Source: Jiangella aurantiaca (GTDB taxonomy: Bacteria; Actinomycetota; Actinomycetes; Jiangellales; Jiangellaceae). Taken from it: a DNA stretch of 42,680 bases. Location: positions 1-42,680 of the forward strand of contig NZ_SMLB01000056.1 in NCBI RefSeq assembly GCF_004349105.1, in the 5' to 3' direction. Under the pieces are notes generated by a model. It was not told where the DNA came from. It was given only the letters and a program-made list of their open reading frames with translations, and did no database searches. Below are positions 29,646 to 31,725 of the stretch, in pieces. The position numbers and the translations under genes are program-made. The stretch's first letter is position 1. The number at the start of each line of letters is the position of its first letter.

Positions 29646-29753
29646 GATGACTGCCCCCTCAGTGTGCTCCTACGGCGAGCGTAGACCCGTTCCGGGCGGC
29701 CGAAGCTGACGTAGATTCGAAGCAGCCGACGTGAGCCGATGAAGGAGCCGACC

Positions 29754-30614
29754 ATGGCGCACAGTCCCAGGACCATCCAGCCGGGCGACGTCCAGGACGA
29801 GCGGGTGGCCCGGCTGCCGCTGACCGCCGCCTACACCTGGGCCTACCTGCCCGTCGTCCTCGACGACGACGGCCGTGCGGTCGACAACGCCGCCGTGGTC
29901 AACGGGCGGCTGTGGCCGCTGCGGTTCGACGAGCATCCCACCACCGCCATGGCCGACGACCTCGACGCGCTGGCCGACGAGGGCCTCGTCTGCCGTTACG
30001 TCGTCGACGGCCAGGCGTACCTGCACGATCCCGCGTGGCGACGGCGGCAGCGGCTGATCCGCCCGGTGAGGTCGGCGCTGCCGCGCTGCCCGGTCCACGA
30101 CTCCGGCATCCGCGAGTTCGTCGACGACACCATCACGTCGGTGCAGGACCAGGTCAGCTCCATCCTCGGCGGCGCCGCCACCAGCGCCGGCACGACGAAG
30201 GTCCGCGACACCGTGGCCCGCATCGTCGAGGACGTCACGTTCCCCGTCGACCCCTCCAAGGCGGCGGCGTACGGCCAGCGCATCCGCGACTTCCTCGGCG
30301 GCACGCCCACCCGCCACGACGACCACCCCGACGACGCCGCGCGCTTCCCGGTCGCCGGCACGGCCGACACCGCGCCCGAGGTCGAATACGACGCCCATGG
30401 TGCCGCCGTCACGAAGGACAGCGGTCCCGCCGACGGCGAGCCGGACACCGACACCGCGTCGGCCGGGGACGCACCGACCAGTGAGGTTCCGGCGGGCGAG
30501 GCTCCGGCCGACGAGCCGCGGCCGGACGAGCCGCCGGCCGGCACCGAGCGCCTGGCGCCGGGCGACGTCTGGCGGGCCGCGACCGACGATCCCACCTCCG
30601 ACACCGGCCGCTGA
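29754..30614 (+). CDS. Protein with phage replisome-organizer-like N-terminal domain
   Basis: Residues about 1-115 (MAHSPRTIQPGDVQDERVAR, LTAAYTWAYLPVVLDDDGRA, ADDLDALADEGLVCRYVVDG, AYLHDPAWRRRQRLIRPVRS) follow the pattern of the winged-helix domain at the start of actinophage replication-initiation proteins ('RTIKPEFW..DDV ... L...GL..RY.V.G..Y'). Residues 115-190 are helical and include a DTITSVQDQVSSILGG stretch. The last 90 residues are acidic, Pro/Thr/Asp-rich and disordered. No DNA-replication ATPase or DnaC-like domain follows. AAGGAG (29742-29747) favours ATG 29754. It lies 82 bp upstream of the DinB2-type gene, same strand. The match is from memory of family patterns. Confidence 0.6.
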   Translation: MAHSPRTIQPGDVQDERVARLPLTAAYTWAYLPVVLDDDGRAVDNAAVVNGRLWPLRFDEHPTTAMADDLDALADEGLVCRYVVDGQAYLHDPAWRRRQRLIRPVRSALPRCPVHDSGIREFVDDTITSVQDQVSSILGGAATSAGTTKVRDTVARIVEDVTFPVDPSKAAAYGQRIRDFLGGTPTRHDDHPDDAARFPVAGTADTAPEVEYDAHGAAVTKDSGPADGEPDTDTASAGDAPTSEVPAGEAPADEPRPDEPPAGTERLAPGDVWRAATDDPTSDTGR

Positions 30615-30696
30615 GCCGCCCGGCCGGGCCGGAGACCGCGGAGCCGATCCGCCCGCCGTCCCGCAGGTTGTCGGCGCGGCCGGACACAATGGCGCT

Positions 30697-31725
30697 GTGT
30701 CCCGCTGGGTCCTGCACGTCGACCTCGACCAGTTCATCGCTGCCGTCGAGGTTCTGCGCCGTCCCGAGCTGGCCGGCAAGCCGGTAGTCGTCGGCGGCGA
30801 CGGCGACCCGACCAAGCGGGGTGTCGTCGCCACCGCCTCCTACGAGGCGCGCGCGTTCGGCGTCCACTCCGGGCTGCCCATGCGCACCGCCGCGCGCCGC
30901 TGCCCTGAGGCCGTCTTCCTCCCGGTCGACAAGCCCGCCTACGAGGCGGTGTCCGAAGACGTCATGACGACGCTGCGCGAGTTCGGCACCGTCGAGGTGC
31001 TCGGCTGGGACGAGGCCTTCGTCGACGCCGGCGAGACCGGCGACGACGACCCCGAGGGCACCGCCCGGCGCATCCAGCGGCGCGTCCGCGAAGCCACCGA
31101 GCTCGACTGCACCGTCGGCATCGGCGAGAACAAGCTGCAGGCCAAGCTGGCCACCGGGTTCGGCAAGCCGGCCGGCGTCGCCACGCTCACCTACGACGAC
31201 TGGTTCGACGTGCTCGGCGATCGCCCCACCGACGCACTGTGGGGCGTCGGCGCGAAGACGGCGAAGAAGCTCGCCGAGATGGACATCCACACCGTCCGCG
31301 ACCTCGCCACCACGCAGCCCGACACCGTGGCCGCGCGGTTCGGGCCCACCATCGGGCCGTGGCTGGTGCGCGTCGCCCGCGGCGTCGCGTCGGCGCGGGT
31401 CACCGGCGAGCCCTGGCTGGCCCGGTCGCGCGGCAAGGAGTTCACGTACCAGCAGAACCTCGAGAACTGGGACGAGGTCGAAGGTGAGGTGGTCCGGCTG
31501 GCGCACGAGGTGGCCCGTGAGGTCGTCGCCGAGCAGCGGCCCGCCGTCCGCGTCGTCGTCAAGGTGCGGTACGCCCCGTTCTTCACCTCCACGCACGGCC
31601 ATAAGCTGACCCAGCCGACGAGCGACGGAGACGCGCTCGCCGCGGCCGCGCTGGTGGCGCTCGGCCGGTTCACCGACCGCCGGCCCGTCCGGCTCCTGGG
31701 CGTTCGCGCTGAGTTCGGCGGTTGA
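30697..31725 (+). CDS. dinB: Y-family DNA polymerase, DinB2 type
   Basis: The 342-residue polymerase has the palm acidic residues Asp9 (LHVDLDQF) and Asp105-Glu106 (LGWDEAFVD), the finger motif ASYEARAFGVHSGLP, VGIGENKLQAKLATGFGKPAG, the helix-hairpin-helix LWGVGAKTAKKLAEM and a little-finger domain ending RPVRLLGVRAEF. The residue at the steric-gate position is Ile14, where ordinary DinB has Phe or Tyr; mycobacterial DinB2 has Leu14 and incorporates ribonucleotides. No C-terminal beta-clamp-binding motif is visible, also as in DinB2. GTG 30697 follows CACAAT by 6 nt without an RBS, so a leaderless mRNA is likely. Confidence 0.92.
   Translation: MSRWVLHVDLDQFIAAVEVLRRPELAGKPVVVGGDGDPTKRGVVATASYEARAFGVHSGLPMRTAARRCPEAVFLPVDKPAYEAVSEDVMTTLREFGTVEVLGWDEAFVDAGETGDDDPEGTARRIQRRVREATELDCTVGIGENKLQAKLATGFGKPAGVATLTYDDWFDVLGDRPTDALWGVGAKTAKKLAEMDIHTVRDLATTQPDTVAARFGPTIGPWLVRVARGVASARVTGEPWLARSRGKEFTYQQNLENWDEVEGEVVRLAHEVAREVVAEQRPAVRVVVKVRYAPFFTSTHGHKLTQPTSDGDALAAAALVALGRFTDRRPVRLLGVRAEFGG

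Follow-up and report, generated by a model that had tools for sequence, protein, structure and literature searches.

An actinobacterial DinB2-type polymerase with an isoleucine steric gate and a retained threonine at the second sugar-discrimination position

The window analyzed here, a stretch of 42,680 nucleotides from Jiangella aurantiaca, carries on its forward strand, at positions 30697–31725, an open reading frame that begins with GTG and, stop codon included, specifies a protein of 342 amino acids (LHVDLDQFIAAVE). Profiles, alignment, a structural model, and fold matches all identified the product as a dinB2/dinP-type Y-family DNA polymerase (DNA polymerase IV): it scored 521 bits against NCBIfam NF002883 (PRK03352, DNA polymerase IV equivalog), for which the cut-off is 330, and matched both Pfam IMS and Pfam IMS_C. 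An AlphaFold2 model built from 55 sequences (mean pLDDT 95.9, pTM 0.87) had as its top structural matches four complexes of MsDpo4 (DinB2) with DNA (Z 39.1–39.6, rmsd 1.4–1.7 over 342 residues), and the closest solved protein is Mycobacterium smegmatis DinB2 (MsDpo4; PDB 4dez and 6jul–6juo; MsDinB2 below). We aligned the protein with E. coli DinB (L335, dinB of NC_000913) and MsDinB2 (PDB 4dez). As shown by this alignment, Asp9 (codon 9, 30721–30723) and Asp105–Glu106 (codons 105–106, 31009–31014) correspond to the catalytic metal ligands of both references, and all three residues are kept in 280 of 280 distinct relatives with a non-aromatic gate. The protein thus has the Y-family fold, the little finger, and the catalytic D and DE of the DinB2/DinP group, together with a non-aromatic steric gate (Ile14) and neither a clamp-binding motif, by pattern search, nor a C-terminal extension, and it clusters with MsDinB2 away from aromatic-gate DinB (a 95-row clade, SH-aLRT 100, against 11 aromatic rows). 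The initial annotation had called it a DinB2-type polymerase, and the PRK03352, IMS, and IMS_C matches, the fold, and the tree placement agree: among the error-prone repair polymerases of actinobacteria, a family already known, it is an ordinary representative.

The little-finger domain and C terminus are encoded by 31426–31725 (IMS_C match, residues 244–338), and the protein stops directly after the little finger, without any tail or extension. A pattern search of the window protein found no clamp-type motif, as had been claimed from the sequence before; the same pattern did recover QDDLF in a DinB1-type paralog of the host, and two mycobacterial proteins of the DinB1 type gave QESLF. Among 278 clade members with a readable C terminus, a single one (L100) had a loose match to the pattern in its last 60 residues, and this match lies inside the last little-finger strand. 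Recruitment independent of the clamp is plausible for the window enzyme, judging by the absence of the motif. MsDinB2 resembles the window protein in family, fold (Z 39), length, catalytic residues, and aliphatic gate, and it too has been described as having no predicted clamp motif (PMC10159617); the two are 52% identical and differ in Leu14 versus Ile14, in Cys47 versus Thr46, and in their position on the tree, where MsDinB2 sits on a filter-less branch and the window protein outside it. E. coli DinB (Pol IV) shares with the window protein the fold, the catalytic residues, and a Thr at the second sugar-discrimination position, and differs in its Phe13 gate, its C-terminal clamp motif (PMC3096655), and an identity of only 31%.

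Two observations speak for the GTG start: the alignment with relatives begins at residue 1, and a start codon is kept in the upstream alignment, where 12 regions (10 distinct ones) taken from Jiangella and its close relatives, loci with a minus-strand match being left out, show GTG in 11 cases and ATG in 1. A −10-like element, CACAAT, lies on the plus strand at 30685–30690 and ends 6 bases before the GTG start; its extended form, CA[CG]AATG, was present in all 12 of these upstream regions. Between 30685 and 30699, where CACAATG is followed by the GTG start, no obvious ribosome-binding site can be seen by eye. This arrangement suggests a leaderless transcript for dinB2. Four simple patterns revealed no SOS-like box near the gene. 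A conserved operon partner was considered and rejected, because no neighbor was kept outside Jiangellaceae in 80 named loci (the best 80 of 519). The downstream genes for a molybdopterin oxidoreductase, an FAD/NAD reductase, and a DUF6510 protein accompany dinB2 in 4 of these 80 loci (flanks of up to 5 kb), all of them in Jiangellaceae, and the upstream gene (29739–30614, 291 amino acids) is found beside it in 5 of the 80, again in Jiangellaceae only. The product of this upstream gene has no Pfam match at E 0.01.

The steric-gate position is occupied by Ile14 (codon ATC, 30736–30738), which shares its alignment column with Phe13 of E. coli DinB and Leu14 of MsDinB2, just as the initial annotation had placed it. 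That annotation had also put forward an alignment of actinobacterial DinB2 proteins at position 14 as a check, and among the relatives read here the non-aromatic gates were Ile, Leu, Val, and Gln. Were the real gate a different residue, Ile14 would be irrelevant for sugar choice; we consider this very improbable because residue 14 aligns without gaps with the experimentally tested Phe13 and Leu14 and adjoins the invariant F13, and we found no point in favor of such an alternative. An Ile gate in actinobacterial DinB2-like enzymes is not new, having been in print since 2014: the study that founded the DinB2 clade gives, in the text available to us, L, I, or V as the gates of the group and lists Ile in nine actinobacteria and Val in two (PMC4176160). 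The nine Ile-gate proteins, from Amycolatopsis mediterranei, Kribbella flavida, and seven other actinobacteria, share the gate with the window protein, and nothing in that text sets them apart from it or reports an assay of them (PMC4176160). Nor is the Ile gate rare, an idea that we rejected because Ile is the commonest state in our sample, with 138 of the 280 non-aromatic-gate relatives. Every one of the 12 genomes of the genus carries the gene (84–100% identity), 11 of them with an Ile gate and 1 with Leu, so the gate of the window protein is not a chance feature. The exception, an 88% identical orthologue in another genome of the genus (G007; L015, 1501–2517, minus strand), is a natural Ile-to-Leu gate swap by one base (ATC, CTC).

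A second sugar-discrimination position, which was absent from the earlier reading of the sequence, is the polar filter in the fingers, which we take to be Thr43 in E. coli DinB and Cys47 in MsDinB2. Substitution C47T reportedly lowered rNTP use by MsDinB2 sharply (work ascribed to Johnson et al. 2019). In the window protein, the same alignment column holds Thr46 (codon ACC, 30832–30834), so that the protein does not have the Cys at the finger position, and hence the lack of a polar filter, that goes with the rNTP-adept M. smegmatis type. The Sulfolobus Dpo4 chain also has Thr at this position, and in the deposited MsDpo4 chain 6jum Thr replaces the Cys. The filter has been described as working together with the gate (PMC7084774; PMC11253446; PMC9130138). 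Its mechanism is disputed, few of the hydrogen bonds having been judged convincing and a steric "sensor" in the fingers being preferred (PMC10639073), a view that still leaves the finger residue a role. Four different codons are used for Thr in this column. Thr46 may nevertheless be retained for reasons besides sugar choice, because the column, although conserved, is not exceptionally so, 63 of the 342 columns showing no more changes than it does.

We read gate and filter in 316 distinct homologs, which came from searches of the genus, the best named-genome matches, the phylum, the class, the Mycobacterium-containing family, and the genus Mycobacterium. The whole protein was the query at the level of genus, phylum, class, and family. 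The phylum search gave a match in 43 of 396 genomes at E 1e-60 and the class search in 98 of 393 at E 1e-75, with at most five candidates scored per genome in both; the family search, with at most fourteen candidates per genome, included seven of its many lower, aromatic-type rows and left out a DinB2-like row without its N terminus (G529); and the Mycobacterium genus search, with at most ten candidates per genome, contributed its best 30 rows, of which 27 were new and all of these L/C (gate/filter). The named-genome scan, represented by its 80 best confirmed stretches out of 519, is biased toward Ile, one of its six patterns having contained Ile. Some assignments of relatives to Mycobacterium or Jiangella rest on identity to named sequences.

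Among the 280 relatives with a non-aromatic gate, which are distinct but not independent sequences and make up a non-random sample that includes near relatives, the states were I/T in 138, L/T in 33, V/T in 14, L/C in 48, Q/C in 46, and L/S in 1, giving 185 with a Thr filter and 95 without. All 95 come from one family of genomes, which has I/T, L/T, and V/T proteins as well, elsewhere on the tree. The named loci of Amycolatopsis (14 loci), Lentzea, and Saccharothrix are I/T, as are those of Actinomadura except for one L/T. The filter of the 35 aromatic-gate homologs was Thr in 19 cases; the other 16 had Ala, Gly, Cys, or Ser. Excluded from the 280 was L137, whose gate is unreadable and whose filter reading is unreliable; this DinB2-like gene (genome G073) matches from residue 51 only and has one internal TGA, so this copy may be decaying, or the frame may be in error. 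In phage records, a cut-off of E 1e-20 gave 25 relatives, every one of them less than 60% identical to the window protein.

The history of the two positions was followed on a tree of 106 representatives, made by a quick method with the gate and filter columns masked and with SH-aLRT as its only support measure, without bootstrap. The non-aromatic-gate proteins formed one clade (the 95 rows, SH-aLRT 100, referred to above), and within it the 26 non-Thr rows (Cys or Ser), namely MsDinB2 and 25 rows belonging to the family in which its nearest relatives are found, formed a single branch (SH-aLRT 98) outside which the window protein falls. Because these 26 rows form one branch, MsDinB2, the protein tested for RNA synthesis, belongs, as far as this tree can tell, to a derived, filter-less subgroup. 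The fewest changes on the tree are one from aromatic to non-aromatic gate and, within the clade, one from Thr to non-Thr filter. The gate column changed 21 times in the clade, which is average variability (198 of the 342 columns have no more changes), and the filter column twice. A statistical coupling of gate and filter was set aside, because the filter left Thr in a single event that supplies one independent pair; the association of the two states is therefore no proof of coupling. Set against branch length, there was 1 filter change in the open-gate clade and 4 in the 11 aromatic rows (P = 0.013; 0.025 after omission of the longest row), a comparison of little weight because the aromatic rows were assembled ad hoc. 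Thr is also not the sole candidate for a functional difference, because residue 58 (30868–30870 in the window) is Ser in 185 of 185 Thr-filter members and Ala in 95 of 95 Cys/Ser-filter members, and the little-finger residues 248, 289, and 292 likewise separate the two groups.

The filter-less proteins include a Gln-gate branch of 46 distinct sequences, always with a Cys filter (for example, L163, 1501–2529, minus strand, and L134, 1501–2553, plus strand); the Nocardia farcinica protein (L336, 301–1353) is Q/C. A polar Gln gate could contact the ribose 2′-OH. Among the matches listed in the open-licence literature, which Johnson et al. 2019 lies outside, there was no report of a Gln-gate DinB2 or of the Thr/Cys split of the group. 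The sole Ser-filter member with a non-aromatic gate, L162 (1501–2508, minus strand; codon AGT, Leu gate), lies inside the Cys branch and, from its sequence, could be a Thr–Ser–Cys intermediate.

Our preferred reading, to which we assign a probability of about 0.6, is that the window encodes a stand-alone, presumably clamp-free translesion polymerase of the actinobacterial DinB2/DinP type, in which the gate is open, the Thr filter is kept, and sugar selectivity is intermediate. The analysis itself shows what the enzyme is, which residues it has, how these are distributed on the tree, and, by pattern, that the clamp motif is absent; the selectivity, like the recruitment and the cellular role of the enzyme, we infer. 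Catalysis would be of the ordinary two-metal Y-family type through D9, D105, and E106. Ile14 in place of an aromatic gate would leave the 2′-OH of an rNTP less blocked on the palm side, and Thr46 in the fingers would retain discrimination from a second direction, so that net selectivity would fall below that of an aromatic-gate DinB and clearly above that of MsDinB2. Two published enzymes frame this expectation. Changing the gate of E. coli DinB (by a substitution that the available text leaves unspecified) raised ribonucleotide incorporation from <10^-5 to ∼10^-3 (PMC3901139). In magnesium, MsDinB2 showed a kpol difference of 2.6- to 6-fold and a 26- to 78-fold weaker affinity for rNTPs (PMC4176160). 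The effect in E. coli DinB is real yet smaller than the near-loss of discrimination in MsDinB2, and we predict for the window enzyme a value of ∼10^-3, like that of the gate-changed E. coli protein, and not RNA polymerization of the MsDinB2 kind. Because the second barrier, Thr46, looks intact, the window enzyme probably makes RNA less freely than its mycobacterial cousin. No assay of an Ile-gate/Thr-filter enzyme was found among the matches listed in the same open-licence literature.

The initial annotation had gone further: its DinB2 type, Ile gate, and missing clamp motif stand, and its step from likeness to MsDinB2 to ready use of rNTPs is weak in view of Thr46. On that account, the Ile gate makes a polymerase that, like MsDinB2, is adept with rNTPs and lays ribo-patches, Thr46 being of minor importance. 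The gate alone can indeed decide in some proteins, since MsDinB2 loses RNA synthesis with L14F and DinB1 gains it with F23L (PMC4176160). Seven presumed mycobacterial DinB1 proteins (M. smegmatis DinB1 not among them) have Gly at the filter, however, so that the F23L gain probably occurred in a filter-less protein and does not contradict intermediate selectivity. A point that does count against intermediate selectivity is that work on Dbh and Dpo4 is cited among the studies in which removal of the aromatic gate raised rNTP use, although Dpo4 has the Thr filter (PMC4176160). Against ready rNTP use stand the gate-changed E. coli DinB, which stays near 10^-3 (PMC3901139), and the history of the clade, with a single departure of the filter from Thr against 21 changes of the gate. 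Overall, we regard an rNTP-adept window enzyme as unlikely.

A further explanation holds that the aliphatic gate mainly adapts how bases and lesions are handled, with improved synthesis on undamaged DNA, an altered lesion range, and increased slippage, sugar selectivity being incidental. Consistent with this, the gate change in E. coli DinB boosts synthesis on undamaged DNA (PMC3901139) and brings greater sensitivity to nitrofurazone, F13V leaving a −1 frameshift signature (PMC3096655), and L14F in MsDinB2 alters overexpression phenotypes (PMC10159617). Altered lesion handling may therefore be the selected property of a changed gate, as these analogies suggest. No results on lesion bypass by an I/T enzyme came to light in the literature consulted, and the explanation is compatible with the preferred reading of an open gate and retained filter, in which the gate may count equally for lesion choice and copying of undamaged DNA as for ribose; as an account in which sugar selectivity is merely incidental, we think it possible, with the balance somewhat against it.

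More tentatively, the preferred reading can be extended to the whole DinB2 group, which may be functionally split. The majority, including the window protein, would combine an open gate with an obligatory Thr filter and would not be RNA-capable, and ribonucleotide polymerization would have arisen once, through loss of Thr in the Mycobacterium/Nocardia lineage, where a Gln gate evolved that may bind the ribose 2′-OH, yielding polymerases that prefer rNTPs or use them equally well. A 2026 survey describes the DinP/DinB2 group as naturally ribonucleotide-adept (PMC12926913). Because the sole DinB2 tested for RNA synthesis in the literature searched sits on the filter-less branch, this group-wide description may not hold. 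The result is thus a useful correction that limits the reach of the mycobacterial finding, the window protein itself being ordinary.

The host genome (6.6 Mb, with the window as contig C54) contains six Y-family matches. Their gate/filter states are I/T in the window protein, L/T in L004, F/T in L002, Y/A in L001, and F/C in L005; the sixth, L006 (contig C20), is a weak and longer match (E 4.1e-6 with the window protein) that could be ImuB-like. L004 (also L020; contig C32) is a second DinB2-like polymerase, 58% identical to the window protein, and three of the 12 genomes of the genus have such a copy. The DinB1/DinX paralog L002 is, like the window protein, a Y-family polymerase with a Thr filter, and differs in its aromatic gate, its QDDLF motif, and its C-terminal extension. 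The host therefore has three of the four natural combinations, closed gate with Thr (L002), closed gate with non-Thr (L001 and L005), and open gate with Thr (the window protein and L004), and these, taken with T46C and I14F variants of the window enzyme, would allow the disputed idea of a polar filter to be tested on natural proteins.
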